This document shows, piece after piece, positions 3,643 through 53,847 of a stretch of 64,000 nt of DNA. A model generated the notes under the pieces. The model was not told the origin of the DNA, searched no databases, and saw only the letters and a program-made list of their open reading frames with translations. The stretch comes from Bradyrhizobium sp. WD16. Lineage in GTDB: Bacteria; Pseudomonadota; Alphaproteobacteria; Rhizobiales; Xanthobacteraceae. Each line of letters opens with the position of its first letter. The stretch's first letter is position 1. The stretch lies in NCBI RefSeq assembly GCF_024181725.1, contig NZ_CP028908.1:186001-250000 (forward strand), written 5' to 3'. A program made the translations under genes and the position numbers.

Positions 3643-4749
<1,107 letters not shown>

Positions 4750-4865
4750 AAGTCTGTTTCGTCCGTAGGTTGGCCGGGCCTGGAGGCTGACCGGCAATGC
4801 TGAAACGGGTCAGATCGCCGTCGCCCCAGGGCACTGGCATGTCTCGCGATGGCCGGGCTTGCTAG

Positions 4866-6373: not shown

Positions 6374-6445
6374 CTAGTGTCCTGTCTCCGAATTACCGTG
6401 CGAGTGCGAGGCAAACGTAGCGGTAATTCGGAGACGGGACACTAG
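6374..6445. repeat. CTAG-bounded palindromic element, type A
   Basis: Begins CTAGTGTCC and ends GGACACTAG. The inner stem pairs GTCTCCGAATTACCG with CGGTAATTCGGAGAC around a conserved loop. Other copies lie at 1-51, 25408-25482, 27603-27677 and 40371-40445, plus one split by an IS3 element. The left CTAG is shared with the neighbouring IS701 target duplication. Confidence 0.9.
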
Positions 6446-6550
6446 CGCTTGTCCCGGCGATCTGTGCGAAGCAACTGCGATCGCCTGATATGGCGGGGGT
6501 AAGGCAACATGGGCCGCCGCCGTCCCGGCCCATGCGCCTTGCCGTTCGCC

Positions 6551-8011: not shown

Positions 8012-8037
8012 GTTTCCTCTCCCTGGTAGACGACTTG

Positions 8038-9072
8038 TTATTTGATTGCGCCGAGCAGCATGCCTGAGCGCATCATGCGCCCGAGAATGGCCGCCATGAT
8101 CATCATCGGCACGATGGCGACGAGCGCCGCGGCGGAAATCGCCCACCATTCGTCGCCGCGCTGGCTGTTCTGGCCGGCGACGAGGATCGGCAGCGTCTGC
8201 CACCTGGAATTGGTCAGGAACAGCGCGAACAGGAACTCGTTCCAGACGAAGGCCAGCGTGATCATGAAGGTCGCAAGCAGGCCGTTCATCGACATCGGCA
8301 CCACGATGCCGACGAAGATGCGCCAGCTCGGCACGTTGTCGACCAGCGCCGCCTCCTCGACCTCGACCGGCAGCGCCTCGAAGAAGTCGCGCATCAACCA
8401 GACCACGATCGGCAGCGAGAAGGCGACGTAGCACAGCGTCAATCCGAGAAAACTGTCGACCAGCGGAAAACCGAGCCGGCCGATTTCGGAATAGAGCAGG
8501 TAGAGCGCGAAGGCGGTGACGATCGGCGGAAACATGCGCTGGCTGACGAACCAGAAGAGGATGTCCTGGTTGGCGAGCACCGGTCCCGGCAGCGGCAGCA
8601 GATCGACGGCGAGCGCGGCGAACAGAGCCACCGGAAAGGCGAGCAGCAGGGCCTGCGGCCGCGTCAGCCCGAAGGAGGCGAAGGCGAGATAGCCGCCCAG
8701 CGCCAGGACGAGGAAGGCGAGCCCGGACAGGAGCTTCACCTTGAACTCGAAGCGCACCAGCGCATAGGCGGCCATGGCGCCGATCAGCGTCGCGACCACC
8801 GCCGAGGTCAGGCCGACGATCGTCGAGTTGAGGAAGGTGCGAAAGAATTCGCCGCGAATGCCGTGATAGAGATCGGCGAAGGCCTGGATCGTCGGAGTAA
8901 AGTCGACGAAGGGCAGATAGGTCGGGCCGCCGACCACGCCGGGCGGCGTCTTGAAGGCGGTGATCACCACCCAGTAGAGCGGAAACAGGGTGAGCAGGCA
9001 CCAGACGAGGCAGCCGATCGCGGCAAGGCGGCGCGCCGCCGGCGACAGGCCGATGAGCGGACGGCCCTTCAT
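8038..9072 (-). CDS. Sugar ABC transporter permease (MalG type, long form)
   Basis: A 344-residue inner-membrane protein. The EAA loop EEAALVDNVPSWRIF, which docks on the ATPase, lies near residues 237-251. At about residues 109-180 there is a hydrophobic segment (VLALGGYLAFASFGL and LLLAFPVALFAALAVDLLPL) that ordinary MalG-type permeases of 270-290 residues lack, so this one probably has extra membrane helices. Its start overlaps the stop of the preceding permease gene (ATGA). Confidence 0.9.
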   Translation of the reverse strand: MKGRPLIGLSPAARRLAAIGCLVWCLLTLFPLYWVVITAFKTPPGVVGGPTYLPFVDFTPTIQAFADLYHGIRGEFFRTFLNSTIVGLTSAVVATLIGAMAAYALVRFEFKVKLLSGLAFLVLALGGYLAFASFGLTRPQALLLAFPVALFAALAVDLLPLPGPVLANQDILFWFVSQRMFPPIVTAFALYLLYSEIGRLGFPLVDSFLGLTLCYVAFSLPIVVWLMRDFFEALPVEVEEAALVDNVPSWRIFVGIVVPMSMNGLLATFMITLAFVWNEFLFALFLTNSRWQTLPILVAGQNSQRGDEWWAISAAALVAIVPMMIMAAILGRMMRSGMLLGAIK

Positions 9073-9944
9073 CGCCGCTTCTCCAGATGCGGCTTGAGCA
9101 GCGCCAGATAGGTCGTGCCGATCACCGTGATGGCGATCAGGAACAGGAAGCTCAGCGCCGAGGTGTAGCCGAGATTGAACTTCTTGAAGCCCTCCTGATA
9201 GGCGAACAGCGTCAAGGTCTCGGTGTCGACGCCGGGACCGCCGCCGGTCATGACGAAGACGGTGTCCATGATCTTGTAGCTCTCGATCAGGCGGATGAAG
9301 ACCACCGCCGCCGAGATCGGCAGCAGCATCGGGAAGGTGATGCCCCAGAACTGCTGCCAGTGGCTGGCATTCTCGAGCTCGGCGGCCTCATAAACGTCCT
9401 CCGGCAGGGTCTGCAGCCCCGCCAGCAGCATCAGGATCATGAAGGGCGTCCACTGCCAGACTTCGACGGCGATGATGCAGCCGAGCGCCCAGGGCCCGCT
9501 GGTGAGGAAGGGCAGATTGGGAAAGCCGAAGGCGGTGAACAGCTGGTTCAGCGGCCCCATGGTCGGGTTGAACATCATGCGGGCGACGAGCGCCACCGCC
9601 ACCGGGGCGAGCAGCATCGGCAGCAGGAAGCCGACGCGGAACAGCCGCTCGCCCGGCACCCGCGCATTCAGCGCCAGCGCGACCGCAAAACCGATGACAT
9701 ATTGCAGGCCGACGGCGACGAAGGCGATCAGGCTGGTCTTGGCCAGCGCGTTCCAGAACCGCGGCTCCTGCAGCAGCGTCGCGTAATTGCCGAGCCAGAC
9801 GACGCGCGGCGGCAGCGGCGGAATCAGGCGGTAGCTCAGGAAGCTGGTGGTCAGGGAATAGATCAGCGGAAAGATCGAGATCGCCAGCACGACCACGACG
9901 GCCGGCCAGATGAAGACATGCTTGATCGGGTCGTTGCGCATCAT
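9069..9944 (-). CDS. Sugar ABC transporter permease (MalF type)
   Basis: A 291-residue permease with about six hydrophobic helices and an EAA loop (YEAAELENASHWQQFWGI). It forms the heterodimeric channel with the product of the next gene. Its start overlaps the end of the kinase gene by four bases (ATGA), and its stop overlaps the next permease start, so transcription and translation are coupled. A second ATG at 9941 is an alternative start. Confidence 0.92.
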   Translation of the reverse strand: MMRNDPIKHVFIWPAVVVVLAISIFPLIYSLTTSFLSYRLIPPLPPRVVWLGNYATLLQEPRFWNALAKTSLIAFVAVGLQYVIGFAVALALNARVPGERLFRVGFLLPMLLAPVAVALVARMMFNPTMGPLNQLFTAFGFPNLPFLTSGPWALGCIIAVEVWQWTPFMILMLLAGLQTLPEDVYEAAELENASHWQQFWGITFPMLLPISAAVVFIRLIESYKIMDTVFVMTGGGPGVDTETLTLFAYQEGFKKFNLGYTSALSFLFLIAITVIGTTYLALLKPHLEKRR

Positions 9945-10876
9945 CGCGCGTCGTGCTCCGACAGGAGTTGCTCGATCTCCGCAAGGGCCGGCATCGCCGG
10001 CGCGGTGCCGCGGCGCGTGACCGACAGTCCCGCCGCCGCCGAACCGAAGCGCGCCGCCGCCACCGGGTCGCTGCCGCGGGCGAGCGCCGCGGCGAAGGCA
10101 CCGACGAAGGCGTCGCCCGCGCCGGTGGTCTCCACCACCGGCCCCGCCGCGAAGGGCGGGATGTGGATCGAGCGTTCGCGGTCATGAAACAGCGCACCGC
10201 GCTCGCCCAGGGTAATCAGCGCGGTACCGGCGCCCTTGGCGAGGAGCGCGTCGCCGGCGCGACGCGCGGCGTCGAGATCACCGACCTCGATGCCGGTCAG
10301 GGTCTGCGCCTCGACCTCGTTGGGCACCACATAGTCGCAGAGCGGAAACAGCGCCGCGTCGCATTCGGTCGCCGGCGCCGGATTGAACACCGTCGTCACC
10401 CCGGCCGCCCTCGCCAGTTCGAGACCGCGCCGTGCCGCAGCGACCGGCTGTTCGAGCTGGGTGACGAAGACGGCGCTGTCGCGGATGACGTCGGCGGCAG
10501 CGTCGAGATCGGCGGCGCACAGCCCGGCCGCCGCGCCCGGCACCACGATGATCGCGTTGGCACCGGTGGTGTGGTGGACATAAATGAAGGCGGCCCCGGT
10601 CTCGGCGTCATCGCACCGCCTCGCGCGCGGCGTGATGCCGTCCGCCTCCCAGGTCTTCAGCGCCAGTTCGCCGAAGGTATCGTTGCCGATGCGGGTGATG
10701 AAGGTGGTCTCGCCGCCGGCCCGCGCCGCCGCCACCGCCTGGTTGGAGCCCTTGCCGCCGGGCCCGACGGCGAAGCCGGATCCGGCGATGGTCTCGCCGA
10801 TCGCCGGCAGCCGGCCGGCGCGGAAGGCGAGATCGGCGACGAAGATCCCGAGGATCGTGACCCCGCGACGCGTCAT
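9941..10876 (-). CDS. Ribokinase-family (PfkB) sugar kinase, probably deoxyribokinase
   Basis: A 311-residue PfkB-family kinase. The N-terminal substrate motif is GGKGSNQAVAAARAGG (residues 40-55), and the catalytic anion-hole/base motif is ETTGAGDAFVGAFA near the C-terminus. Ribokinase relatives phosphorylate ribose or deoxyribose at O5. Placement with deoC makes deoxyribokinase the best guess: it would supply deoxyribose 5-phosphate to the aldolase. The ATG at 10876 starts the homology, 5 bases after the mutarotase gene. Confidence 0.85.
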   Translation of the reverse strand: MTRRGVTILGIFVADLAFRAGRLPAIGETIAGSGFAVGPGGKGSNQAVAAARAGGETTFITRIGNDTFGELALKTWEADGITPRARRCDDAETGAAFIYVHHTTGANAIIVVPGAAAGLCAADLDAAADVIRDSAVFVTQLEQPVAAARRGLELARAAGVTTVFNPAPATECDAALFPLCDYVVPNEVEAQTLTGIEVGDLDAARRAGDALLAKGAGTALITLGERGALFHDRERSIHIPPFAAGPVVETTGAGDAFVGAFAAALARGSDPVAAARFGSAAAGLSVTRRGTAPAMPALAEIEQLLSEHDAR

Positions 10877-10881
10877 GACCG

Positions 10882-11337
10882 TCACTCCGCATCGGGCGCG
10901 ATCACGCCCTTGGTGAACAGGAAGCAGCCGTAGAAGCGGCGCTCGCCGGTGGCGATGACGCAATAGGCCTCCTTGGCGCGGGCATAGAAGGCGTGGCGCT
11001 CGACCCCGACCAGCGGCCAGCGCCGGCCTTCGGCGCGGTCGATCTCGCCCTGAACCTCCTGCTGCACGTCTGGCACCTCGTCCGGCGCGCCGACGATCTC
11101 CATCCGCACCGCCGCGTCGTCGACGAAGGTGTCGAGCGGCAGCAGCGACAGCACCGCCCGCGCGGCCCGCGCCGCCGTCACATTGTCGATGCGCAGCAGA
11201 TGGCCGAGCCGGGTCTGGCGGGCGATGGAATCGGCCGGAAAATTGGTGTCGCAGATCACCAGCCGGTCGCCATGGCCCATGGCCCGCAGGGCATGGAGCA
11301 CGTCGGCATTGAGCGCCGGATCGATCGTCTTGAGCAT
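10882..11337 (-). CDS. RbsD/FucU family sugar mutarotase
   Basis: A 151-residue protein with the family signature HGDRLVICDTNFPA, which carries the active-site His and Asp, and a C-terminal segment with Tyr-Gly-Cys (RRFYGCFLFTKG). The family equilibrates sugar anomers for the downstream kinase. It lies between the aldehyde dehydrogenase and the kinase genes in the deo-type operon. Confidence 0.9.
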   Translation of the reverse strand: MLKTIDPALNADVLHALRAMGHGDRLVICDTNFPADSIARQTRLGHLLRIDNVTAARAARAVLSLLPLDTFVDDAAVRMEIVGAPDEVPDVQQEVQGEIDRAEGRRWPLVGVERHAFYARAKEAYCVIATGERRFYGCFLFTKGVIAPDAE

Positions 11338-11422
11338 CTCTCTCCCCTCGTGTCCTGTTGTTGAAGGCGTCGCGGCCGGCTGCGCTCAGCCTGGCCCCTC
11401 GCCCGCTGCGCTCCCCGCCTGG

Positions 11423-13822
11423 TCATTCGCCATATGGAATCCAGACATTCTTCACCTGCACGGCGTGACGCAGCAGGATCGGCCCTTCGGCGGCGGCGGC
11501 ATCGAACCAGTCGAGCGCCAGGCCATGGTCGACCAGCGTGCGCTTGAGATTGCCGGCGGACAGTTCCTCCGCCAGCGCCGAAGCCGCTTTCGAGCCGAAC
11601 ACCCATAGCGCATCGACGTCGTCGTGCTCGGCCAGCGTCCTGACGAGGCCGTCGCGCGCGCCGGTGACGATGTTGAGCACGCCCGGCGGCACATCCGAGG
11701 TCTCCAGCACCTGATAGAGATCGGTGGCGCTGAGCGGGTGGCGCTCGCTCGGCACAACGACGACGCGGTTGCCCAGCGCGATCAGCGGCGCCACGAGGCT
11801 GACGAAGGCAAGCAGCGGCGCTTCATCCGGACAGGCGACACCGACGACGCCGATCGGCTCGTGCATGGCGAGCGCGACGCCGCGCAGCGGCGGCGTGTGC
11901 ACCGCGCCCTCATATTTGTCGGCCCAGGCGCCGTAGCTGAACAGCCGGGCAATGCTGGCTTCGACCTCGCGCCTGCCGATGGCGCCGGACACCCCGGTCA
12001 TGGCCGCGATCCTGCCGGCGAATTCGCCGGCGCGCGCCGAGAGATTCTCGGCGAGGTAATAGAGGATCTGGCCGCGGTTATGGCCGCTCGCCCGCGACCA
12101 CGCACCGGCGCCCCGCGCCGCCGCCACCGCGTTGCGGATATCCTTGCGGCTGCCGTCGCCGACCTCGCCGAGCGGCCCGCCCTTGGCCGAGAGCACGCGG
12201 CGAACGTAATTGCCGTCGGGCCTGACCTGCTTGCCGCCGATGAAGAGCTTGGCGGTGCGGTCGAGCCGCGGCAGATCGAAGCCGGCGGTGTCGCTGACGG
12301 CGGTCTCGGCGCCGCCGGCCAGCGCGGCGAGCTGCGGCCGCGGCCGCCGCGCGGCCCAGGCCTTCGGCTTGAGATATTCGAACACTCCCTCACGTCCGCC
12401 CTCGCGGCCGAAGCCGGATTCGCGGGTGCCGCCGAAACCGACTCCGGCATCGAACAGATTGGTGGCGTTGATCCAGACGACCCCCGCCGCGAGCTTGGGC
12501 GCGATGTCGAGGGCGCGACCGATGGTCTCGCTCCAGACGCTGGCGGCGAGGCCATAGCGGCTGTTGTTGGCAAGCATCACGGCCTCGTCAGGGGTGCGGA
12601 AGGTCATCGCCACCAACACCGGGCCGAAGATCTCCTCCATGGCCACCGTCGAGGTCGGCTGCACATCCCACAGCAGCGTCGGCGGGTAATAGCAGCCGGC
12701 CTGCGGCAGCGCCGCGCCGGCCTGATAGCACCGCGCGCCCTCCTTCACTCCGGCCGCGACCAGCGCCTTGATGCGCGCGAGCTGCACCGGCGCGACCACC
12801 GCTCCCATGTCGATGGTCTTGTCGAGCGGATGGCCGAGGCGCAGCGTCTCCATGCGGCGGACGAGGCGCTTGCGGAAGGTCTCGGCGATCCCCTCCTGCA
12901 CCAGCAGCCGCGAGCCGGCGCAGCAGACCTCGCCCTGGTTGAACCAGATGGCATCGACGACGCCTTCAACGGCGCCGTCGAGATCGGCGTCCTCGAAGAC
13001 GATGAAGGGCGACTTGCCGCCGAGTTCGAGGGTCAGCGACTTGCCGCTGCCCGCGGTCGCCTGGCGGATCAGGCGACCGACCTCGGTGGAGCCGGTGAAG
13101 GCGATCTTGTCGACATCGCCATGGGCGACCAGCGCCGCGCCGGCCTCGCCATCGCCGGTGACGATGTTGAGGACGCCCGGCGGCAGCCCGGCCTCGGCCG
13201 CGAGTTCGACGAACAGCAGCGCGGTGAGCGAGGTGAATTCCGCCGGCTTGAGCACCACCGCGTTGCCGAGAGCCAGCGCCGGCGCGACCTTCCAGGCCAG
13301 CATCAGCAGCGGGAAATTCCACGGAATGATCTGCCCGACCACGCCGAGCGGAACATAATCGGCAAACTCGCGCTCCTGCAGCTGGGCCCAGCCGGCATGG
13401 TGGAGGAAGTGTCGCGCGGCGAGCGGCACGTCGAGGTCGCGGGTCTCGCGCAGCGGCTTGCCGTTGTCGAGCGCCTCGAGCACGGCGAACAGCCTGGCAT
13501 GGCGCTGCAGCAGCCGCGCCAGCGCATAGAGATGGCGCGCGCGGCCGTGGCCGCCGAGCTTCGCCCACGCCGCCTGCGCGTTGCGGGCGGCGCGCACCGC
13601 CGCGTCGACGTCGGCCGCCGAGCCTTGGGCGAGCCTCGCCAGCGGCTGGCCGGTTGCCGGCTCGAAGGTGGTGAAGTGCTCGCCGGACGCCGGTGGCGTG
13701 AACGCGCCGGCGATGAAATGACCGAAACCGCCGGCGTGGCCGGCGAGCCAGCGCCGCGCCTCGCCATCGGCCTCGGGCGCCGTGCCGTAATCCATCGTTT
13801 CGAAATAGTCCACGACGGTCAT
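11423..13822 (-). CDS. Double-domain aldehyde dehydrogenase
   Basis: A 799-residue protein. Residues 1-490 form a complete NAD-dependent aldehyde dehydrogenase: IIPWNFPLLML, FTGSTEVGR, the catalytic Glu in LELGGK (about residue 266) and the catalytic Cys in NQGEVCCAGSR (about residue 300). Residues of roughly 510-799 repeat the aldehyde dehydrogenase fold (GVVGVACPDEAPLLAFVSLV, PPGVLNIVTGARDG, VFGSKAAS), but I see no Cys loop there, so this half looks inactive. Next to deoC it would oxidise the acetaldehyde released by the aldolase. The start lies 4 bases after deoC. Confidence 0.9.
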   Translation of the reverse strand: MTVVDYFETMDYGTAPEADGEARRWLAGHAGGFGHFIAGAFTPPASGEHFTTFEPATGQPLARLAQGSAADVDAAVRAARNAQAAWAKLGGHGRARHLYALARLLQRHARLFAVLEALDNGKPLRETRDLDVPLAARHFLHHAGWAQLQEREFADYVPLGVVGQIIPWNFPLLMLAWKVAPALALGNAVVLKPAEFTSLTALLFVELAAEAGLPPGVLNIVTGDGEAGAALVAHGDVDKIAFTGSTEVGRLIRQATAGSGKSLTLELGGKSPFIVFEDADLDGAVEGVVDAIWFNQGEVCCAGSRLLVQEGIAETFRKRLVRRMETLRLGHPLDKTIDMGAVVAPVQLARIKALVAAGVKEGARCYQAGAALPQAGCYYPPTLLWDVQPTSTVAMEEIFGPVLVAMTFRTPDEAVMLANNSRYGLAASVWSETIGRALDIAPKLAAGVVWINATNLFDAGVGFGGTRESGFGREGGREGVFEYLKPKAWAARRPRPQLAALAGGAETAVSDTAGFDLPRLDRTAKLFIGGKQVRPDGNYVRRVLSAKGGPLGEVGDGSRKDIRNAVAAARGAGAWSRASGHNRGQILYYLAENLSARAGEFAGRIAAMTGVSGAIGRREVEASIARLFSYGAWADKYEGAVHTPPLRGVALAMHEPIGVVGVACPDEAPLLAFVSLVAPLIALGNRVVVVPSERHPLSATDLYQVLETSDVPPGVLNIVTGARDGLVRTLAEHDDVDALWVFGSKAASALAEELSAGNLKRTLVDHGLALDWFDAAAAEGPILLRHAVQVKNVWIPYGE

Positions 13823-13826
13823 GCGC

Positions 13827-14861
13827 TCATCCCGCGGCGTGCCGGTTGAAGGCCGAGTAGCGGCCGGTGACGTGATGCTCGAGCTGGCGCTCGATGTCGG
13901 CGAGCAGGCTGGAGGCACCAACGCGGAAGAGATCCGGTTCGAGCCATTCGCGCCCGAGCTCCTCCTTCATCAGGAACTGGTACGACAACACGTCCTTGGC
14001 GGTGGAAATGCCGCCGGCCGGCTTGAAGCCGACCTGAAATCCGGTGCGCTCGGCATAGGCGCGGATCATCCGCAGCATCGCCAGCGTCACCAGCAGCGTC
14101 GCATTGACGCCTTCCTTGCCGGTCGAGGTCTTGATGAAATCCGCTCCCGCCATCATGCAGACCGTCGCCGCCCTGGCGACATTGCCCAGGGTCTTGAGAT
14201 CGCCGGTGGCCAGGATCGTCTTGATATGGGCATCGCCGCAGGCGGCGCGGAAGTCCCGCACCTCGTCGTACAGCGCGCCCCAGTTGCCGGTGAGGACATG
14301 CTCGCGGGTGATGACGATGTCGATCTCCCTGGCCCCGTCCCGGACCGAGGCCTCGATCTCGCGGAGCTTGACGTCGTGGGGCACCAGCCCGGCGGGGAAG
14401 CCGGTGGACACAGCGGCGACGGGAATCTCCGAGCCCTCCAGCGCCTCCACCGCGGTGGCGACGAAGCGGTGATAGACGCAGACCGCGGCGGCGTGCAGCG
14501 GTCGCCCGGCGAACCCCAGCGCCTCGACGAGATCGGCACGGATCGGCGTCTTCGCCTTGGCGCAGAGCCGCTTCACCCGCCCGGCGGTGTCATCGCCGCT
14601 GAGCGTCGTCAGATCGATGCAGGTCACCGCCTTGAGCAGCCAGGCCGCCTGGGCGGCGTTCTTCACGGTGCGACGCCCGGACAGCGTCGCGACGCGGCGC
14701 TCGGCGGCGGAGAGGTTGACCCTGATCTCGTCGATCCAGTCGGCCTGGAAGGCGCAGCCCTCATTGCGCCGCGGCGGCGCGTTCGCCACACGGTGGCGCT
14801 CGCCGCCCGCCGGCAAGCGAGCCGTATCGACGTGACGACTGGACGGCTGGAGGCTCGACAT
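13827..14861 (-). CDS. deoC: Deoxyribose-phosphate aldolase
   Basis: A 344-residue class I aldolase that splits 2-deoxyribose 5-phosphate into glyceraldehyde 3-phosphate and acetaldehyde. The Schiff-base Lys is in GADFIKTSTGKEG, the second Lys in GFKPAGGIST, and a proton-relay Asp/Lys pair lies in EIDIVI and AHIKTILATG. It is longer than the roughly 250-residue E. coli type, as is usual for this subfamily. It heads the sugar operon. Its ATG overlaps the stop of a small upstream reading frame. Confidence 0.95.
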   Translation of the reverse strand: MSSLQPSSRHVDTARLPAGGERHRVANAPPRRNEGCAFQADWIDEIRVNLSAAERRVATLSGRRTVKNAAQAAWLLKAVTCIDLTTLSGDDTAGRVKRLCAKAKTPIRADLVEALGFAGRPLHAAAVCVYHRFVATAVEALEGSEIPVAAVSTGFPAGLVPHDVKLREIEASVRDGAREIDIVITREHVLTGNWGALYDEVRDFRAACGDAHIKTILATGDLKTLGNVARAATVCMMAGADFIKTSTGKEGVNATLLVTLAMLRMIRAYAERTGFQVGFKPAGGISTAKDVLSYQFLMKEELGREWLEPDLFRVGASSLLADIERQLEHHVTGRYSAFNRHAAG

Positions 14862-15069: not shown

Positions 15070-15087
15070 ATGTTACTTTTGTAACAT
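15070..15087. promoter_or_regulatory. Palindromic operator between deoC operon and deoR-type gene
   Basis: ATGTTAC and GTAACAT are perfect 7-bp inverted arms around TTTT, in an AT-rich patch of otherwise GC-rich DNA. It lies 83 bp upstream of the regulator gene and about 105 bp upstream of the leader frame before deoC, in the divergent promoter region. It is the likely site of the DeoR-family repressor, consistent with autoregulation. Confidence 0.75.
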
Positions 15088-32361: not shown

Positions 32362-34341
<1,980 letters not shown>

Positions 34342-34835
34342 AACGGCGTCCTCCCGGTCGGTCTGCCCCGTGCCTGCGCCGGGAGCTTGGCGCGGAGTGT
34401 CGCGCCGGAACGCGGCGCGATCAAGACGAAGGCGAAGCAGATCGCCGCAGCGCCAAGGGATGCTCTTGCACCGGCCACCACCCGGCGCCAAGCCCTCCCG
34501 GTTCAAATCGCAGCCGGCGCGCCACTTCGGTAAAGAACTGGACACACCAAAAGCTGCCGTTCCTGCGCTTGAGGCAGTGACCAGCGCGCGCAGCAGCACG
34601 CCTTTCGACCCCATGATGCGAACTTCTTTCGTTTACCTCGGTGCGCTGGGCCAGGGCGCGGAGGTGGTCGCGGCGGTAGCCGTCCGACTCGGTCCGCATG
34701 CGCATGCGTGCCGTTCTGGCAAAGGTCTTGATCGATTGGGTGGTTATGGATGGCGTTTGTCCGCGCTGTGGCACTGGCGCGATAGCCCGATAGGGCGCTA
34801 AAATTACTCCGGCTGTTATTCTTCCGGGGCGTCAC
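34342..34835. other. Intergenic region upstream of acoR and a lipoprotein gene
   Basis: About 490 bp with no supported gene. It should carry the divergent promoters of acoR and the gene at 34836. GC content falls towards the right end. I see no clear operator. Confidence 0.5.
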
Positions 34836-36620: not shown

Positions 36621-36772
36621 GCGCCACGGCGAAAAAGGGTGGCGCGATCACGCCCATGTGCCTTGGTTGCCATCGCGCCGCAGCGTAATCGATGATCTAT
36701 TGTTCCTTCTCTTGTACCTGGCATCCGGCGGGACGCCAGGTACTTCTATTTTCGCCAACGAGGAGATGCCTC

Positions 36773-37228
36773 ATGACGATCACCCTCAAGATCAACGGCA
36801 CCGCCCAAGACTGGGACGGCGATCCGGCGCTGTCGCTGCTGTGGTACCTGCGCGACGAAGCCGGATTGACCGGAACCAAGTTCGGCTGTGGCGAGGCGCT
36901 GTGCGGCGCCTGCACCGTCATGGTCGACGGCGCGGCGGTGCGCTCCTGCATCACCGCGGTCGCGGACGTCGCCGGCCGGGAGATCACCACCATCGAAGGC
37001 CTGCATCCGACCGGGGATCATCCGGTGCAGAAGGCCTGGCGCCAGGTCAACGTGCCGCAATGCGGCTATTGCCAGGCCGGCCAGATCATGCAGGCCGCCG
37101 CGCTGCTCAAGGAAAACCCCAAACCCAGCCACGATCAGATCCGCGACGCCATGGCGGGCAACATCTGCCGCTGCGGCTGCTATCAGCGGATCGAGGCCGC
37201 GGTCCACCTCGCCTCGACGGGAGCCTGA
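36773..37228 (+). CDS. 2Fe-2S subunit of a molybdenum hydroxylase (IorA type)
   Basis: A 151-residue protein with two [2Fe-2S] clusters. The plant-ferredoxin-like motif is [15 protein letters not shown] with a preceding GTKFGCG, and the helical-domain motif is [10 protein letters not shown] then [11 protein letters not shown]. It transfers electrons from the molybdopterin subunit encoded next. AGGAG precedes the ATG at 36773, and its stop overlaps the start of the next gene. Confidence 0.93.
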
Positions 37229-39522
37229 TGATGCTGGACATCGTTTCTCCCCCGATCGAGAAAATCTCCCGCCGCGGCGTGCTCAAGACTCTCGGCCTCG
37301 TCGGCAGCTTCGTGCTCGCCGCGCCGGTGATGTCGCGCCAGGCGCTCGCCGCCTATACGACCGGCGCGGACAAGATGCCCCACGGCACCGTGGCGGACCC
37401 GCGGGTCTTCGTCGCCATCGCGCCGGATGGCATCGTCACCATCCTGGCGCACCGCGCCGAGATGGGCACCGGCGTGCGCACCAGCCTGCCGATGATCGTC
37501 GCCGACGAGATGGAGGCCGACTGGAGCCGCGTCCATGTGAAGCAGGCCCCGGGCGACGAGGTCAAATACGGCAACCAGGACACCGACGGCTCGCGCAGCA
37601 CACGTCATTATCTCATGCCGATGCGCCAGATCGGCGCCGCGGCGCGCACCATGCTCGAAGCGGCGGCGGCGAAGCGCTGGGGCGTATCGGTCTCCGCGGT
37701 CAGGGCCGAGAATCATGAAGTCATCCATGCCGCAAGCGGCCGCCGGCTCGGCTTCGGCGATCTCGCCGCCGATGCCGCGGCCCAGCCGGTGCCGGCGATC
37801 GACGGCCTGCAGCTCAAGGACCCCAAGCAGTTCCGCTATATCGGCACCGGCAAGGTCAGCATCGTCGATCTCCACGGCATCACCACCGGCACGGCGCAGT
37901 ACGGCGCCGATGTCCGCCTGCCCGGAATGAAATACGCCGTGATCGCCCGGCCTCCGGTGGTCGGCGGCAAGGCGACCTCGTTCGAGCCGGACGCGGCGCT
38001 GCGCGTGCCCGGCGTCGAGAAGGTCATGAAAGTGCAGGGCTGGCCGTGGCCCTCGAAATTCATGCCGCTCGGCGGCGTCGCGGTGATCGCGCGCAACACC
38101 GGCGCCGCGATCAAGGGCCGGGACGCCCTGAAGGTCGACTGGGACGACGGCCCCAATGCGTCTTACGACTCGATCGCCTACCGCGCCGGGCTCGAGGACG
38201 CCGTCCGCAAGCCCGGCAAGGTGGTGCGCAATAACGGCGATGTCGACGCCGCGCTCAAGCGCGCCGACAAGGTGGTCGTCGGCGAATATTACGTGCCGCA
38301 CCTCGCCCATGTCAGCATGGAGCCGCCGGTCGCCACCGCCCACGTCGCCGACGGCAAGGCGGAAATCTGGGCGCCGGTGCAAAGCCCCGGCGGCACCCGC
38401 GAGGATGTCGCCAAGATGCTCGGCATTCCGATCGAAAATGTCACGGTGAACGTCACGCTGCTGGGCGGCGGCTTCGGCCGCAAGTCCAAATGCGACTTCG
38501 CCCTGGAAGCGGCGTGGCTGTCGCGGGAGATCGGCGCGCCGGTCAAGCTGCAGTGGACGCGCGAGGACGACATCCGCCACGACTTCCTGCACACGGTGTC
38601 GGCGGAGCGGATCGAAGCCGGTCTCGACAGCAGCGGCAAGGTGATTGCCTGGCGCCATCGCAGCGCGGCGCCCACCATCGCCTCGACCTTCGCCGCCGGG
38701 GCCAGGAACCAGGCGCCGTTCGAACTCGGCATGGGTCTCGTCGACATGCCGTTCGAGATCGCCAATATCCGCTGCGAGAATCCGCAAGCCGTGGCTCATA
38801 CCCGCATCGGCTGGTTCCGCTCGGTGTCGAACATCCCCCACGCCTTCGCCGTGCAGTCGATGGTTGGCGAACTCGCCCATGCCAGCGGCCGCGACCAGAA
38901 GGACATGCTGCTGGAATTGATCGGCACGCCGCGTATCGTCACCATGAACGGCTCGGTCAAGGACCCGTGGAACTACGGCGAGCCGCTCGACAGCTATCCG
39001 ATCGACACCGCCCGGCTGCGGCGGGTGGTGGAATTCGTCGCCGACAAGGCCGGTTGGGGCCGCTCCGTGCCCAAGGGACACGGCCTCGGCATCGCGGTGC
39101 ATCGCAGCTTCGTCAGCTACATCGCCACCGTGATCGAGGTCGCGGTCGACGACAAGGGCAAGCTCAGCGTGCCGCGGGTCGATACCGCGATCGATTGCGG
39201 CACCTTCGTCAATCCGGAGCGGATCCAGTCGCAGCTCGAGGGCGCCGCCATCATGGGGCTGAGCCTCGCCAAACATGGCGAGGTCACCTTCAGGAACGGC
39301 CGCGTCCAGCAGAAGAACTTCGACGACTTCCCGGTGGTGAGGATCGACGAAGCGCCGCTGGTGACGAACGTCCACATCGTGCCGACGAACGGCGATACGC
39401 CGCCGAGCGGCGTCGGCGAGCCCGGCGTGCCGCCGTTCGCCCCTGCCCTCGTCAACGCCATCTTCGCCGCCACCGGCAAGCGCATCCGCAGCCTGCCGAT
39501 CGGCAAGCAGCTCGAGGCATGA
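37228..39522 (+). CDS. Molybdopterin subunit of an isoquinoline 1-oxidoreductase-like enzyme (IorB type)
   Basis: A 764-residue large subunit. A Tat signal ([20 protein letters not shown]) targets it to the periplasm. Molybdenum-cofactor motifs include [14 protein letters not shown] and the catalytic Glu in [18 protein letters not shown] at the C-terminus. Members of this family oxidise N-heterocycles or aldehydes and usually pass electrons to a cytochrome; no cytochrome or XdhC-like maturation gene is adjacent. Its ATG overlaps the preceding stop by one base. Confidence 0.92.
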
Positions 39523-47894: not shown

Positions 47895-48215
47895 ATGGAA
47901 ACACGTCAACGTCGGTCGTTTACGGACGACTACAAGCGGCAAGCGGTCGATCTGGTTGCTTCGAGCGGCCGCTCGATCGGGTCGGTGGCCAAGGAACTTG
48001 GCCTGCGCGATTCCGTGTTGCGGCGCTGGGTTGAACTTCGTGGGGCTGGGCGAGAACCGACGGCGGCGGCGCGGCGCCCCACAACGCAGGCGACGCTGCC
48101 GTCGGCGGATCACGCGGCAGAGATCGCCCGTTTGCAGCGAGAGAACGAGCGGCTGCGCATGGAGCGTGACATTTTAAAAAAGTCGATCGCGATCTTTGCT
48201 GGAGTTCCGAAATGA
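47895..48215 (+). CDS. IS3-family OrfA
   Basis: A 106-residue helix-turn-helix protein (RRSFTDDYKRQAVDLVASSG, RSIGSVAKELGLRDSVLRRW) with a C-terminal leucine-zipper-like segment (EIARLQRENERLRMERDILK). A slippery A-AAA-AAG heptamer at 48176-48182 near the end allows a -1 shift into orfB to make the OrfAB transposase. Its stop overlaps the orfB ATG (ATGA). Confidence 0.95.
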   Translation: METRQRRSFTDDYKRQAVDLVASSGRSIGSVAKELGLRDSVLRRWVELRGAGREPTAAARRPTTQATLPSADHAAEIARLQRENERLRMERDILKKSIAIFAGVPK

Positions 48216-49072
48216 GATTTCGCTTCATCGAAGATCGCCGCGCCGACTATCCGGTAAGACTCATGTGCGACGTGCTCGAGGTATCGCCGGCCGGCTATTA
48301 TGCTTGGCGCTCGCGCCCGCCGAGCCGGCGGACCGCTGCCAATCGTGAGCTCCTGGACGACATCCAACAGGTCCATCGCGACAACCACGGACGCTACGGC
48401 AGCCCGCGCATCCATGAAGAACTGAAGGCTCAGGGCCATGGGGCGAGCCGTGGCCGTATCGAGCGATTGATGCGCCATCACGGGATCAGGGCCATTATGG
48501 CGCGGCCGCGCCGGGTGCGGACCACCGACAGCCGGCACGATCTCCCGATCGCTCCAAATCTGCTCGACCGCAACTTCATCGCCGCCGCGCCGAACCGGAT
48601 TTGGCTGGCCGACATCACCTATGTAGAGACCGATCAGGGCTGGCTCTATCTGGCCACCGTTATGGATCTCTACAGCCGCAAAATCGTCGGCTGGGCGATG
48701 GAGGATCATCTACGCACCGACCTGCCGTTGGCCGCATTGAAGATGGCCATCGCGGTGCAGCGGCCTGGTCCAGGCCTGATCCACCATTCCGATCGCGGCG
48801 TTCAATATGCCTCGGCCGATTACCGAAAGATGATCCAGTCCGCCGGACTCAGAGCCTCGATGAGCCGCAAGGGCAACTGCTACGACAACGCTCCGATGGA
48901 GAGCTTCTTCCACACGCTCAAAACCGAGCTCGTCCATCACCGCCACTATGCGACACGCGAGGAAGCCAGACGGGATATCTTTGCCTATATCGAGGGCTTC
49001 TATAATCGTATCCGTCGCCATTCGGCCATCGGCTACATCAGCCCGATCGCGATGGAACTAAAAGCTGCTTAA
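48212..49072 (+). CDS. IS3-family OrfB (DDE integrase-type transposase)
   Basis: A 286-residue rve-type catalytic subunit. DDE residues lie in WLADITYVETDQGWLYL (Asp), HHSDRGVQYAS (Asp) and NAPMESFFHTLKTELVHH (Glu, with the usual 35-residue spacing). The frame is intact. It lies in the -1 frame relative to orfA, in line with the slippery site. Confidence 0.95.
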   Translation: MRFRFIEDRRADYPVRLMCDVLEVSPAGYYAWRSRPPSRRTAANRELLDDIQQVHRDNHGRYGSPRIHEELKAQGHGASRGRIERLMRHHGIRAIMARPRRVRTTDSRHDLPIAPNLLDRNFIAAAPNRIWLADITYVETDQGWLYLATVMDLYSRKIVGWAMEDHLRTDLPLAALKMAIAVQRPGPGLIHHSDRGVQYASADYRKMIQSAGLRASMSRKGNCYDNAPMESFFHTLKTELVHHRHYATREEARRDIFAYIEGFYNRIRRHSAIGYISPIAMELKAA

Positions 49073-49100: not shown

Positions 49101-49173
49101 TAGTGTCCCTATGTCTCCGAATGACCGTGCGAGCGCGAGGCAAACGTAGCGGTAATTCGGAGACGGGACACTA
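49101..49173. repeat. CTAG-bounded palindromic element, type A, copy 6 (right part)
   Basis: Continuation of the type A element split by IS3. It runs TAGTGTCCCTATGTCTCCG to GACGGGACACTA, where an IS5-type element begins; the final G now lies beyond that element at 50023. Confidence 0.92.
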
Positions 49174-49183
49174 AGGCCTGTCC

Positions 49184-49612
49184 TCAATTGAGCCAGATGA
49201 TAACCGCCGCGAGGTGGATTGCGGCGAGGAAATTTCTGGCGGTTTTGTCGTAGCGGGTAGCGATGGCGCGGTATTGCTTGAGCTTGCAGAAGAAATTCTC
49301 GATGAGATGGCGTGCCTTATAGGCGTGCTTGTCGAAATCGCGCTGGAGCTGCCGGTGGCGCCTGGGCGGGATCACGACCGACTTTCCCCGTGCCAGCAAC
49401 GGGGCAATCACCCGTTCGTCGGCGTCGAAGGCCTTGTCTGCCAATAAGGCGTCGGCCGCCATGTCGGGCAGCAGTGCATCGGCGCCCTCCAGATCATGGG
49501 CTTGGCCGGGCGTCAGGATGAAGTCCAGCGGATTGCCCAGGGCATCGACAAGCGCATGGATCTTGGTGCTCAGCCCGCCTTTGCTGCGCCCGATAGCTTG
49601 GTTTTCGCCGTC
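49184..49612 (-). CDS. IS5-family OrfB, made by -1 frameshift
   Basis: In the -1 frame after the A7 run the sequence reads IGRSKGGLSTKIHALVDALG, LGNPLDFILTPGQAHDLEGA, LLADKAFDADERV (second Asp) and HLIENFFCKLKQYRAIATRY (catalytic Glu). An internal ATG at 49462 gives only the last 92 residues. The full catalytic half needs the shift from orfA. Confidence 0.88.
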   Translation of the reverse strand, partial: DGENQAIGRSKGGLSTKIHALVDALGNPLDFILTPGQAHDLEGADALLPDMAADALLADKAFDADERVIAPLLARGKSVVIPPRRHRQLQRDFDKHAYKARHLIENFFCKLKQYRAIATRYDKTARNFLAAIHLAAVIIWLN

Positions 49613-49941
49613 TTTTTTTGTGCGCCGGCACTGTGCTGATGCGCCCGCACGATCGTGCTGTCGATCATCGCGTACTCATTGTCGGCATCGCTCGCCAGCA
49701 TCTTAAACAGCTTCTTCCACACCCCGCTCTTCGTCCAGCGCGAAAAACGCGTATGTATCTTGATCGGATCGCCGAAGCGTTCGGGCAAATCTCGCCAAGG
49801 GATCCCGGCTCGATAGCGGTAGATCACCGCTTCTACAAACAGCCGATTGTCTTTGGCCGTGACCCCTACATGCCCTTCACGTCCGGGCAAAATATCCTTG
49901 ATCCTATCCCATTGATCGTCCCGAAGGGCGTAGCGGCGCAT
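49570..49941 (-). CDS. IS5-family OrfA
   Basis: A 123-residue N-terminal half (MRRYALRDDQWDRIKDILPG, GIPWRDLPERFGDPIKIHTR, RWTKSGVWKKLF) that includes the first catalytic Asp in YAMIDSTIVRAHQH. An A-AAA-AAG heptamer within the A7 run (49613-49619) allows the -1 shift to OrfB. Without the shift the frame ends 16 codons later. Confidence 0.92.
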   Translation of the reverse strand: MRRYALRDDQWDRIKDILPGREGHVGVTAKDNRLFVEAVIYRYRAGIPWRDLPERFGDPIKIHTRFSRWTKSGVWKKLFKMLASDADNEYAMIDSTIVRAHQHSAGAQKKTAKTKLSGAAKAG

Positions 49942-50059
49942 TTGGTCAGCTCCGAATCAGCTGACCGCCTATGAATCATGCGATAATCTGCTTGGGAATC
50001 CTCTAATTGAGGACAGGCTCTAGTCCGGCGCGGCGTGAGGCGGCGTCGGACCGGCGGCT

Positions 50060-50109
50060 TGTTATATCCGCGACAATACAGCATGTCGGGATCTGTTATA
50101 TCCGTGACA
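50060..50109 (+). promoter_or_regulatory. Two NifA-type upstream activator sites
   Basis: TGTTATATCCGCGACA (50060-50075) and TGTTATATCCGTGACA (50094-50109) both fit TGT-N10-ACA, the NifA binding consensus. They are near-identical direct repeats 34 bp apart, each followed by ATACAGC. They lie about 118-152 bp before the predicted start of transcription, a normal NifA distance. An IS5 element ends only 40 bp upstream. Confidence 0.78.
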
Positions 50110-50192
50110 ATACAGCTACCCAGACCTTACGTCCCGCCGCAGAAACTTTAATTCAACCGATAAATCAGCGCTTTATACTCAAGCGCCGGATC

Positions 50193-50207
50193 TGGCACGG
50201 CACCTGC
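50193..50207 (+). promoter_or_regulatory. Sigma-54 promoter of the molybdenum-handling operon
   Basis: TGGCACGGCACCTGC has GG and GC 10 bases apart and a perfect TGGCACG -24 element; the -12 element is CTGC rather than TTGC. It lies 30 bp before the ATG of the first gene and 83 bp after the second NifA-type site. Confidence 0.75.
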
Positions 50208-50237
50208 TAGGGAGACCTCGTCCCAAGAGGAGCCTTC

Positions 50238-51101
50238 ATGAGATCCGCTTCCGTCCGCTGGCCGATCCGCCCGCCTCGGCCATTCGCCCTGGTGCTCGGC
50301 ACCAGCGAGATCGCCTCGGCGGTCGCCGTCACCCTCACCGGCGCCGGCTGCGCCGTGGTCATGAGCCATGATCCTTATCCGCCGGTGATCCGCCGCGGCA
50401 TGGCCTTCCACGACGTCCTGTTCGGCGAGGCCCGCGAGGTGGAAGGCGTCGGGGGCGAACGCGCCGACACCATGGCCGAGATCGCGCGCATCCATGCCGA
50501 TGCCGGCAAGGTGGTGGTGACCGAGCTGCACCTGACCGACGTCATCGCACTGCGCACGCCGGCGGTGATCGTCGACGCGCGGATGCAGAAACATCGCGTG
50601 ACGCCGGACCTGCGCGGCATCGCCCGCGTCACCGTCGGCCTCGGCCCGCATTTCGACGTCGGCGTCAATTGCGACATCGCCATCGAGACCCATCCCTGCG
50701 AGACCGGCGCCCTCGTCACCGCCGGCGCCACGCGGCCGGCGGACGGCGAGGCACGCGACCTCGGCGGCGCCGGGCGCGAGCGCTTCGTCTATGCCGGGCA
50801 CGACGCGGTCTGGCACACGCCGGTCGACATCGGCGCCCGCATCTACAAGGGCTTCCAGCTCGGCTCGCTCGGTGGCCAGCCGGTGCTGGCGCCGCTCGAC
50901 GGCACGCTGCGCGGCATCGTCCGCGACGGTGCGCGGGTGCCCGCCGGGGTCAAGCTGCTGGAGATCGATCCACGCGGTCGCGGCGCCAGCTGGACCGGCA
51001 TGGATGCGCGCGGCCGCGCCATCGCCGCGGGCGTCGCCGTCGCGGTGGCCCGCATGCTGAACGAAAAACGCACATTGTCGCTGGTGCCGGCGACGACCTG
51101 A
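50238..51101 (+). CDS. YqeB/EF2563-like molybdenum hydroxylase accessory protein
   Basis: A 287-residue protein with an N-terminal Rossmann-like opening (FALVLGTSEIASAVAVTLTG), then VVMSHDPYPPVIRRGMAFHD and EVEGV. The middle includes VIVDARMQKHRV and GLGPHFDVGVNCDIAIET, and the C-terminal half resembles a biotinyl/lipoyl-like beta domain (PVLAPLDGTLRGIVRDGARV). This layout is that of the EF2563/YqeB family linked to selenium-dependent molybdenum hydroxylases. It heads an operon behind NifA-type sites. AGAGGAG precedes the ATG. Confidence 0.82.
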   Translation: MRSASVRWPIRPPRPFALVLGTSEIASAVAVTLTGAGCAVVMSHDPYPPVIRRGMAFHDVLFGEAREVEGVGGERADTMAEIARIHADAGKVVVTELHLTDVIALRTPAVIVDARMQKHRVTPDLRGIARVTVGLGPHFDVGVNCDIAIETHPCETGALVTAGATRPADGEARDLGGAGRERFVYAGHDAVWHTPVDIGARIYKGFQLGSLGGQPVLAPLDGTLRGIVRDGARVPAGVKLLEIDPRGRGASWTGMDARGRAIAAGVAVAVARMLNEKRTLSLVPATT

Positions 51102-51236
51102 CGCAGCTGTTGCCGCCCCGCAATTTCGCATAACCTGATCGAAGTGGTCCAGTTCCGGCATCCGCATCCCGCTCCGGCACAGGAGCCGCCTTCAGGCAGG
51201 CAGCGAATGTCAAGTTCACTCCACCAGGAGACCGCC

Positions 51237-51842
51237 ATGAGGATCGCAGAGAAGGACATGCGCCCGGTCATCGCCCTGCAGGGCTCCGGCGCGACGTCGA
51301 TGCAGCCGCTGCTGGCGGCCATCGCCGAGCGGCTTTCGCGGCGCGGCCTGCGCGTCGTCGGCGTGGTCGAGAACCCGCCCGTCGGGGAGATCCCGTGCAA
51401 GTCGATGGAATTGCGCAGTCTCGAGAACGGGCAGCGCTTTTCCATCTCCCAGGATCTCGGTCCGGGTTCGACGGCCTGCAACCTGTCGCCGGAAGGCCTC
51501 GCCCTCGCCTGCGCGGCGGTGCAGAGCGCGATCGCGCAGGGCGCCGACATCGTCGTGCTCAGCAAGTTCGGCAAGCTGGAAGCGGCAGGCGAAGGTCTCG
51601 TCGACGCCTTCGGCACGGCCATCGAACGCGGCCTTGTCGTGTTCACCTCGGTGTCGCCGACGATCATGGCCGAGTGGCAGGCTTTCGCCGGCGATCTCGC
51701 CGCGTGCGTGACGGTCGATCCGGCGCAGGCGAGCGATCAGGCCTGGCTCGAGCGCAGTCTCGACGGCTGGCTCGACGCCTGGGGACTAGAAGCCGCGGCG
51801 CGAGCGGCGAAGCGCGAACCGAAAGCGCGGATCACCGCCTGA
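51237..51842 (+). CDS. DUF2478 protein
   Basis: A 201-residue protein with an altered P-loop-like opening (IALQGSGATSMQPLLAAIAE) and strands VVGVVEN, IVVLSKFGKLEAAGEG and LVVFTSVSP. This resembles DUF2478, an NTPase-like family often found beside molybdate transport genes. The usual GK(S/T) of an active P-loop is missing, so nucleotide hydrolysis is doubtful. AGGAG precedes the ATG at 51237. Its stop overlaps the next start by one base. Confidence 0.8.
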   Translation: MRIAEKDMRPVIALQGSGATSMQPLLAAIAERLSRRGLRVVGVVENPPVGEIPCKSMELRSLENGQRFSISQDLGPGSTACNLSPEGLALACAAVQSAIAQGADIVVLSKFGKLEAAGEGLVDAFGTAIERGLVVFTSVSPTIMAEWQAFAGDLAACVTVDPAQASDQAWLERSLDGWLDAWGLEAAARAAKREPKARITA

Positions 51843-52267
51843 TGACCGAGCCCGCCGCGCGCATCGAACTCACGGTGTGTTTTGCCAACGGCGGCCGGCT
51901 GTCGCCGGAAGACCTGATGCTGATCGAGGCGATCCGCAAGGAGCGCTCCATCCTCGGCGCCGGCCGGGTCACCGGCATCTCCTATCGCAAATGCTGGCTG
52001 ATGGTGGACGCGCTCAACCGCACCTTCGAAGTGCCGGTCTTCGAGACCCATCCGGGACGGCGCGGCGGCGGCGCCGAGATCACGGCATTCGGCGAACGGC
52101 TGGTCGCGCTGTACCGATCGATGGAGCGGCGCATGCGTGGCGCCGCGGCCGCGGCGCTCGACGAGCTCCAACAGGCTACCGATCCGGACTTCCAGCGGCG
52201 GGCCAGCGCCGCGGCCGAGGCAACTCCGAAGCCCGAACCGCGCCGGGCCCGATCGCGACGGTCTTGA
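51842..52267 (+). CDS. ModE N-terminal-type winged-helix protein
   Basis: A 141-residue protein with the ModE/LysR-like DNA-binding domain: LSPEDLMLIEAIRKERSILG, then GISYRKCWLMVDALNRTF and GGAEITAFGERLVALYRSME. It lacks the C-terminal molybdate-binding (TOBE) domains of full ModE. A stand-alone TOBE-containing protein is encoded on the opposite strand just downstream. The tail (PKPEPRRARSRRS) overlaps that gene by 92 bp and may not be conserved. Confidence 0.85.
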   Translation: MTEPAARIELTVCFANGGRLSPEDLMLIEAIRKERSILGAGRVTGISYRKCWLMVDALNRTFEVPVFETHPGRRGGGAEITAFGERLVALYRSMERRMRGAAAAALDELQQATDPDFQRRASAAAEATPKPEPRRARSRRS

Positions 52268-52652
52268 TCATCGCCCAGGCGTTCAGCCCGGTCTCCAGCG
52301 CCAGCCGCTCCACCGACTCGGTGGTGACCAGCGCATGCAGCGCGACCTTGCCGAGATCGAGGGTCACGCGCACATAGGGCGCCGCGAGCGGCAGGATCTC
52401 GACGATGCGCCCGGGCAGGCGGTTGGTGATCGAGACATCCATCGGCCGCGACAGCGCGATCGAGACGTCGCGCGCCTCGATCGTCACCGCGACGCCGCCA
52501 TCGACCGGCGCATCGACCATCGGAACGCGCAATTCGCCGTCGGCGAAGAACAGCGTGGACAGGCCGTAATGCGGATCGTGACGCAGCACGCGCGCCGGCA
52601 GCGATGTCGTGAGCGAGACCGCGCCGGATTGCGGCCGCGAAAGGCTCGTCAC
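52176..52652 (-). CDS. Stand-alone ModC C-terminal (TOBE/Mop) domain protein
   Basis: A 158-residue protein matching only the tail of the molybdate ATPase ModC: LPARVLRHDPHYGLSTLFFA, VTIEARDVSIALSRPMDVSI, TNRLPGRIVEILP and LNAWAMIKTVAI. The ATPase half is absent. A GTG at 52652 has GGAG at good spacing, so it may be expressed as a molybdate-binding protein rather than being a mere relic. It converges with the ModE-like gene and overlaps its end by 92 bp. Confidence 0.65.
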   Translation of the reverse strand: MTSLSRPQSGAVSLTTSLPARVLRHDPHYGLSTLFFADGELRVPMVDAPVDGGVAVTIEARDVSIALSRPMDVSITNRLPGRIVEILPLAAPYVRVTLDLGKVALHALVTTESVERLALETGLNAWAMIKTVAIGPGAVRASELPRPRRWPAAGSPDR

Positions 52653-52727: not shown

Positions 52728-52743
52728 TGTCGAGAATCCGACA
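52728..52743 (+). promoter_or_regulatory. NifA-type upstream activator site
   Basis: TGTCGAGAATCCGACA fits TGT-N10-ACA and is itself a near-palindrome (TGTCG...CGACA). It lies about 42 bp before a consensus sigma-54 promoter. Confidence 0.7.
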
Positions 52744-52783
52744 GGCCCGCCGCACCGTCATGCTATTCCCGCGGAAATATAGC

Positions 52784-52798
52784 TGGCACGCCGCTTGC
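52784..52798 (+). promoter_or_regulatory. Sigma-54 promoter of the truncated hemoglobin gene
   Basis: TGGCACGCCGCTTGC matches the sigma-54 consensus TGGCACG-N4-TTGC at every conserved position. The gene starts 225 bp further on, so the transcript would have a leader of about 210 nt containing a type D palindrome. Confidence 0.82.
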
Positions 52799-53022: not shown

Positions 53023-53847
53023 ATGACGATCGAGACCAGCCCCGCAGCCAAAGGGCCGTTGCTGCCGCGCGCCGCGGATCCGCAACCCGGGCTGGGCGGC
53101 TTCCGCTTCACGCCCGGAGAGCCGCCGCACGCCGCCGGCCTTTATGTGTTGACGCGCCGCATCGGCGATTTCCTCCACCCCGTCGTCATCGCCTCGGCAC
53201 AGGATATGGCCGAGGATGCAGCGGGCTTTGCGCGGCGCGAGGGCGCTGCTGCGAAGCTCATCGATGGCGCGTTGTGGATGGAGCGGCCGCAGGCACGGCA
53301 GCGCATCGAAATTCTTCGAGACCTCGTGCGCAGCTACAATCCGCCTCTCAACATCGAGCATCGCACCCGCCGTGCCGCCCCGGAGATCGCGGCGCTGGTG
53401 CCCGATCGCGCCGACGATGACCCCGCCCTGGCGCAGCCGACCGACCTTCTGGCGGCGCTCACCGACACCGAGGCCGATCTCGACCGCCTGGTCAGGCGCT
53501 TCTATGCAACCGCCATGGAGGACGAGCTGATCGGACCGGTATTCCGCCGCGCCATCGGCGACTGGGAGCATCATTTCCGCATCGTCCGCGACTTCTGGTC
53601 CAAGAGCTTGCTCGGCACCACGCGCTACAATGGCATGCCGTTCGCGGCGCATCTCGGCCTCGATCTGAAGCCCGCCTTCTTCGATCGCTGGCTGGAGATC
53701 TTCCGCGCCACGGCCCGCCGGGAATTGTCCGGCCCGGCGGCGGATCGCGCCATCGCCAAGGTCGAACACATGAGCGCCTGCTTCCAGGCCGGGCTGTTTC
53801 CTTCCGCAGCGGGGCGTCAGCCCCCTTCCCTCGCCGCACATCGCTGA
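53023..53847 (+). CDS. Group III truncated hemoglobin with N-terminal GIY-YIG-like domain
   Basis: A 274-residue protein. Residues of about 145-260 form a group III truncated hemoglobin: LVRRFYATAMEDELIGPVF, WEHHFRIVRDFWSKSLLGT and proximal His in FAAHLGLDLKPAFFDRWLEI. The first 120 residues hold GLYVLTRRIGDFLHPVVIAS and end RIEILRDLVRSYNPPLN, which follow the order of a GIY-YIG fold (GLY, VVI, Glu, Y-PPLN) with altered motifs. GAAAGGA precedes the ATG. Expression from a NifA-type promoter suggests a role under nitrogen fixation, such as O2 or NO control. Confidence 0.85.
   Translation: MTIETSPAAKGPLLPRAADPQPGLGGFRFTPGEPPHAAGLYVLTRRIGDFLHPVVIASAQDMAEDAAGFARREGAAAKLIDGALWMERPQARQRIEILRDLVRSYNPPLNIEHRTRRAAPEIAALVPDRADDDPALAQPTDLLAALTDTEADLDRLVRRFYATAMEDELIGPVFRRAIGDWEHHFRIVRDFWSKSLLGTTRYNGMPFAAHLGLDLKPAFFDRWLEIFRATARRELSGPAADRAIAKVEHMSACFQAGLFPSAAGRQPPSLAAHR

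Follow-up and report, generated by a model that had tools for sequence, protein, structure and literature searches.

A putative nif-linked molybdenum operon with overlapping NifA-type and ModE-type sites in Bradyrhizobium sp. WD16

Introduction

The closest described systems are those of Rhodobacter capsulatus, where morAB and mopA-modABC are activated by NifA/NtrC and subject to Mo-box repression by MopA/MopB; morAB in particular is NifA-activated and, through Mo-boxes bound by MopA/MopB, Mo-repressed (PMC6925177). Control of modABC by NifA is described for Bradyrhizobium in main-text passages of PMC4999443, in which neither the operon analysed here nor Mo-boxes are mentioned. How ModE proteins lacking a molybdate-binding domain sense molybdenum was noted as unclear in 2004 (PMC545781).

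The locus analysed here lies in a 64-kb window (G000:C1:186001-250000; coordinates below are window positions unless stated otherwise) of a complete 5.95-Mb genome. It shares with the R. capsulatus morAB and mopA-modABC systems the nif-linked molybdenum genes and, as predicted here, NifA/RpoN activation together with Mo-box control. It differs in content, since morABC encodes a ModABC-like transporter whereas the window operon comprises a yqeB-like gene, a DUF2478 gene and an HTH-only modE. It differs also in that its operators merge a NifA site with a Mo-box, morAB being compared by its published regulation and not by the morA promoter sequence. With the NifA-controlled modABC in the cited passages on Bradyrhizobium it has in common the NifA control of molybdenum supply predicted here; the genes are different. 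Atu2564 of Agrobacterium tumefaciens, an HTH-only ModE (ModE-S), reportedly recognises a pair of Mo-boxes at modA and is responsive to Moco. Such regulators (Atu2564; 2ijl) have in common with the window protein a winged-helix domain without Mop domains and paired Mo-box-like operators, but the window modE is placed inside a NifA-type operon and, in the conserved block, is always accompanied by a convergent ModC-tail gene.

According to the initial annotation the gene set, if rightly read, would be an undescribed branch of molybdenum trafficking, which was found to hold in part. In the literature on DUF2478, on YqeB with nif and on ModE-short, no description of the window operon was found, and its set of genes seems undescribed, as do the merging of the two sites in one operator and the invariable co-occurrence of ModE-short with a ModC tail. 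On the other hand, NifA control of modABC is already known, and so is combined regulation by NifA and Mo, as published for morAB.

Genes and predicted products

A YqeB relative, a DUF2478 protein and a ModE DNA-binding half, with a separate ModC tail on the minus strand, had been proposed initially, and all four were matched by profiles. The first gene (50238-51101, plus strand) was homologous to TIGR03309 over its full length (E 8.8e-43), and its 146.6 bits, far under the equivalog cut-off of 220 bits, marked it as a homolog of YqeB and not an equivalog. The same was observed for 6/6 YqeB-like proteins tested, with block and nif loci both represented. The window protein is further set apart from YqeB by its link to diazotrophs, and no selenium context was seen around it. 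The predicted model (pLDDT 89) consisted of a Rossmann part and a C-terminal barrel-sandwich (lipoyl-like) domain resembling biotin carriers. Fold searches with this protein gave matches at the domain level only, and PDB sequence searches with the YqeB-like and DUF2478 profiles gave nothing usable.

The DUF2478 gene (51237-51842, plus strand) scored 154.2 bits against PF10649 (E 2.8e-45; gathering score 22.3). Its start is probably at 51237, a position preferred for its ribosome-binding site, in a reading frame that is open from a GTG at 51144. The predicted fold was nearest to the P-loop NTPase THEP1 (1ye8, TM 0.60/0.69). The broken P-loop noted initially was borne out, although it is not peculiar to the window, as the loop was degenerate in 19/19 aligned relatives; an intact Walker A (GxxxxGK[ST]) was present in 0/19, and the proteins were not classed as P-loop NTPases. 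The alignment contained an invariant cysteine, Cys81. Elsewhere, on plasmids, DUF2478 genes adjoin Moco genes such as moaA and glp.

The third gene (51842-52267, plus strand), whose start overlaps the DUF2478 stop codon, matched the first part only of TIGR00637 (E 5.2e-16). Its product was assigned to ModE-short, having kept the ModE winged helix and the SY(K/R)..W and GGxGGG-type motifs without a Mop domain, and it resembles the HTH-only solved structure 2ijl. It is not a full-length ModE, which has a DNA-binding domain and tandem Mop domains, as the TOBE domain is absent. No ModE with Mop domains stood out when the genome was searched with the TIGR00637 profile, the two best matches both being HTH-only, and the paralogue of the window gene lies at 3.87 Mb. 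The fourth gene (52176-52652, minus strand) is convergent with modE, the 3' ends overlapping by 92 bp. Its product aligned to positions 237-352 of TIGR02142 (E 3e-22), corresponding to the C-terminal part with the TOBE domain; since the ABC ATPase domain is absent, it was taken as a stand-alone ModC regulatory tail (TOBE/Mop) and not as ModC. The possibility of a degraded modC pseudogene was ruled out because 10 aligned homologues had the same layout at 65% mean column identity, the RDVSIALSRPMDVSITN stretch being invariant.

Several neighbouring features were recorded. An IS5/IS4-type insertion element (49170-50024) with 20-nt terminal inverted repeats and a split transposase reading frame (49570-49941 and 49184-49462) ends 35 bp before the distal composite site, and an IS3-type element lies beside it at 47895-49072, also upstream of the operon. 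A molybdenum hydroxylase with two subunits (2Fe-2S and MoCoBD) is encoded at 36692-39522, some 11 kb away from the operon. A 750-aa reading frame at 32362-34614 encodes an NtrC-family sigma-54 activator that fell under every equivalog cut-off shown.

Composite sites and promoter

Two TGT-N10-ACA sites (50060-50075 and 50094-50109) and a -24/-12 element (50193-50207) had been annotated ahead of the operon, and all were present as described; their ModE-box extension, and a second NifA-type promoter at 52728-52798, had been missed. The distal composite site, TGTTATATCCGCGACAATACAGC (50060-50082, plus strand), contains the NifA-type element at 50060-50075 overlapping a ModE-type dyad, GTTATAT-N8-ATACAGC, at 50061-50082, and the proximal site, TGTTATATCCGTGACAATACAGC (50094-50116, plus strand), contains the same overlapping elements. 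The pair forms a 23-nt direct repeat, 96% identical and 34 bp apart, and the full element is unique to this pair in the genome when up to 3 mismatches are allowed. Both are near-copies of a shared 23-bp motif, TGTTRTAT-N4-RACAATAYAG, which holds the NifA-type TGT-N10-ACA and the ModE box TRTAT-N8-ATAYA with dyad centres offset by 4 bp; bases 5 and 20, placed symmetrically in the ModE dyad, are variable (R and Y).

The sigma-54 promoter, TGGCACGGCACCTGC (50193-50207, plus strand), lies 45 bp before the YqeB-like start codon, and this distance (-45/-46) is kept in Bradyrhizobium, G191 and others. It is one of just three elements in the 64 kb that score at least 0.9, another being at 52784. The arrangement of TGT-N10-ACA upstream of a -24/-12 promoter, in a genome with nifA, is that expected of a NifA regulon member. 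Since five TGT-N10-ACA motifs were found in the window against 3.3 expected, the short motif alone is not significant, and the weight rests on the 23-bp near-copies, conserved with a sigma-54 promoter before the same genes in nine other genomes. A further TGT-N10-ACA pair at 15071/15092 was rejected as a NifA target; it precedes a DeoR-like regulator and lacks a sigma-54 element.

The assignment of the second element to ModE is supported by the following data. The dyads of both sites match the ModE box (core TATAT-N8-ATATA), with the outer CG/CG bases kept only in part. Their core spacing is the same as in the E. coli ModE consensus, written CGNTATATA-N6-TATATANCG or ATCGNTATATA-N6-TATATANCGAT (PMC545781). 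With a Mo-box model trained without the window sites and without composite sites, the two composite sites ranked first in the 64 kb at 23.2 bits each, compared to 19.0 for the best of 20 simulated windows. The strict dyad TRTAT-N8-ATAYA was found at 6 places in the 5.9 Mb genome and at 1 for the reversed control. Two of the six are in the composite sites, one (CGATATATTGAATGAAATATAACG) adjoins a canonical NifA site in the intergenic region of nifH2 and an ABC transporter, one precedes a ModA-like gene, the fifth separates a LysR-type gene from one for a DMT-type transporter, and the sixth is probably a chance occurrence.

The same genome contains a second Mo/nitrogen cluster (4581-14588 of locus L081, G000:C1:3856000-3875900). 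It comprises an ABC transporter with NMT1-type relatives, a Mo-box with an adjoining canonical NifA site, an extra nifH, a divergent yqeB-like gene, DUF2478, an HTH-only ModE and further Mo-box-like dyads at 10080 and 13589.

Conservation and association with nitrogenase

Named genomes and 297 genomes belonging to the order were scanned for relatives of the YqeB-like gene. The same block, headed by or beside the YqeB-like gene and with the ModE half and ModC tail convergent, was found at eleven other loci, the 3' overlap of the latter two being about 90-100 bp in the relatives measured; at one locus (L061) DUF2478 was not recognisable. A sigma-54 element with one or two TGT-N10-ACA sites was present upstream at nine of the eleven, so that the sites and promoter, on whose retention in relatives keeping the genes the initial reading depended, are kept in nine other genomes. 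Of the remaining two loci, L035 is on a contig that begins too near the block to show sites, and L061 keeps a Mo-box-like dyad while the sigma-54 element and the TGT-N10-ACA sites are absent. No nifH was found in the MAG carrying L061, and judging by this MAG the block genes can exist without nitrogenase, if the assembly is complete.

The search of block promoters used TGT-N10-ACA only, the extension bases being no part of the query, and 18/18 sites carried the invariant extension (TRTAT...AATAYAG). The proximal site begins 96-110 bp before the -24 element, and the intervening sequence is only 48-56% alike. The block is not monophyletic in the YqeB-like tree, which forces at least 3 changes, and gene gain, loss or transfer has therefore mixed it. 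Genome G284 has its ModE half broken into two frames (L066:8445-8866), through a frameshift or an assembly error.

The nif genes that the initial reading presupposed are present in the host genome, which has nifA (NifA 762.9 bits, above cut-off), nifDKEN and three nifH. Among genomes with a YqeB-like gene, nifH was above cut-off in 31 of 37, and the rest include several fragmented assemblies in which nifH is partial. In the sample of the order, nifH was above cut-off in 14/15 YqeB-like genomes versus 46/297 overall (Fisher 9e-12, kinship ignored). Three poorly characterised families, the diazotroph YqeB-like proteins, DUF2478 and the stand-alone ModC tail, are thereby tied to nitrogenase genomes.

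The proposed molybdenum link of the operon was strengthened by the ModE box within each site and by modABC, which lies directly upstream of the block in photosynthetic Bradyrhizobium (loci L036-L039). The modABC promoter at these loci carries GATATATACGAATGGATATAGC or a close variant, a Mo-box whose right half is the same as in the composite sites; ACA is missing at the NifA position, and a separate TGT-N10-ACA is found farther upstream. For the host genome's own modA (815 kb), two canonical NifA sites were found and a Mo-box was absent, and the yqeB-like copy in the host nif region, together with many nif-located copies, has canonical TGTC...GACA sites. From these promoters and that of L061 it was deduced that the NifA element and the ModE element each occur alone as well as combined in one site. 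Directly ahead of an NMT1-type substrate-binding protein by the block in Bradyrhizobium sp. STM 3809 (L035:2555-3432) is a perfect palindromic Mo-box, GCTATAT-N8-ATATAGC, and this protein possibly belongs to an unrecognised molybdenum-regulated transporter.

Proposed control and alternatives

The window is likely to contain a nif-linked molybdenum operon that is activated by NifA/RpoN and modulated by ModE through overlapping dyads, with products that would aid molybdenum supply for nitrogenase. In the proposed mechanism, NifA would bind both TGT-N10-ACA sites and from there activate RpoN polymerase at 50193-50207, and a ModE-type protein, most likely the HTH-only product of the third gene or its 3.87-Mb paralogue, would bind the TRTAT-N8-ATAYA dyad that shares bases with each NifA site. 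Owing to this overlap, NifA should be kept off by bound ModE, which is the simplest form of modulation by molybdenum status, and the operon would then run only during nitrogen fixation combined with a shortage of molybdenum (or its cofactor). The products may have a part in acquiring, sensing or allocating molybdenum for nitrogenase. We infer from sequence that NifA and ModE bind, in which direction molybdenum acts and what the proteins do; the sign of ModE action is not fixed by sequence. The NifA/sigma-54 control assigned initially was supported, but control is probably dual, by NifA and molybdenum, rather than by NifA alone. As a compact model, diazotrophs could match molybdenum handling to both the nitrogen-fixation state and metal supply at one operator.

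ModE-short and the ModC tail always occur together in the block, convergent and with overlapping 3' ends. Conceivably, though this is rather unlikely, they make up a ModE split over two proteins, the ModC tail sensing molybdate in trans and the merged operators acting as an AND-NOT switch for nitrogen fixation under molybdenum shortage. Such an arrangement would be a candidate answer to how ModE proteins without a molybdate-binding domain sense molybdenum.

It appears unlikely that, under the same dual control, ModE is a co-activator or anti-silencer at molybdenum sufficiency and that the operon serves molybdenum storage or insertion and not scavenging. MopA of R. capsulatus activates mop, which counts for this reading, as does a small Mop/TOBE protein (molbindin-like, with possible storage function) encoded after yqeB-like in L067 and present in six other loci. 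Exclusion is nevertheless favoured by the bases shared between the ModE dyad and the NifA site, and morAB, the documented nif case with both regulators, is Mo-repressed (PMC6925177). Maturation of molybdenum hydroxylases, with an indirect nif link, would correspond to the annotated role of YqeB, given that TIGR03309 is annotated for selenium-dependent molybdenum cofactor biosynthesis; the hydroxylase (MoCoBD and 2Fe-2S subunit) at 36692-39522 and the plasmid-borne DUF2478 genes adjoining moaA and glp are consistent with it. This was judged quite improbable, as the YqeB-like proteins were under the equivalog cut-off in all six tested, the block neighbours in relatives are modABC and not hydroxylases, and the promoters are NifA-type.

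The repeats could also be ModE boxes only, the TGT and ACA being accidental and the promoter being driven by a different sigma-54 activator such as the NtrC-family protein at 32362-34614. The window contains TGT-N10-ACA alone at a frequency compatible with chance, the genome encodes about 12 other sigma-54 activators, one of them within the window, and the site before the Methylocella tundrae yqeB-like gene keeps the Mo-box without TGT-N10-ACA. However, block promoters invariably have the ACA, which falls within the ModE dyad's spacer, and the Mo-boxes of modA promoters lack it. Together with the canonical TGTC...GACA sites of nif-located yqeB-like genes and the strong nifH co-occurrence of the yqeB-like gene, this makes the reading as ModE boxes only very improbable.

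Second NifA-type promoter

Downstream of the block, a canonical palindromic NifA-type site matching the consensus, TGTCGAGAATCCGACA (52728-52743, plus strand), is followed by a consensus-perfect sigma-54 promoter, TGGCACGCCGCTTGC (52784-52798, plus strand), which scored at least 0.9. A weak Mo-box-like dyad, GCTATTCCCGCGGAAATATAGC (52762-52783, plus strand), abuts the -24 element and had the third-best Mo-box score in the window, not above the null maximum. Behind this promoter lies a gene (53023-53847, plus strand) for an N-terminal extension and a group III truncated haemoglobin domain, which is probably co-regulated with the operon, though it is outside the conserved block. Apart from 52728-52798, the strict pattern of NifA site and sigma-54 element was found in the genome only ahead of nifH. 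M. tundrae likewise has a yqeB-like gene next to one for a group III truncated haemoglobin.
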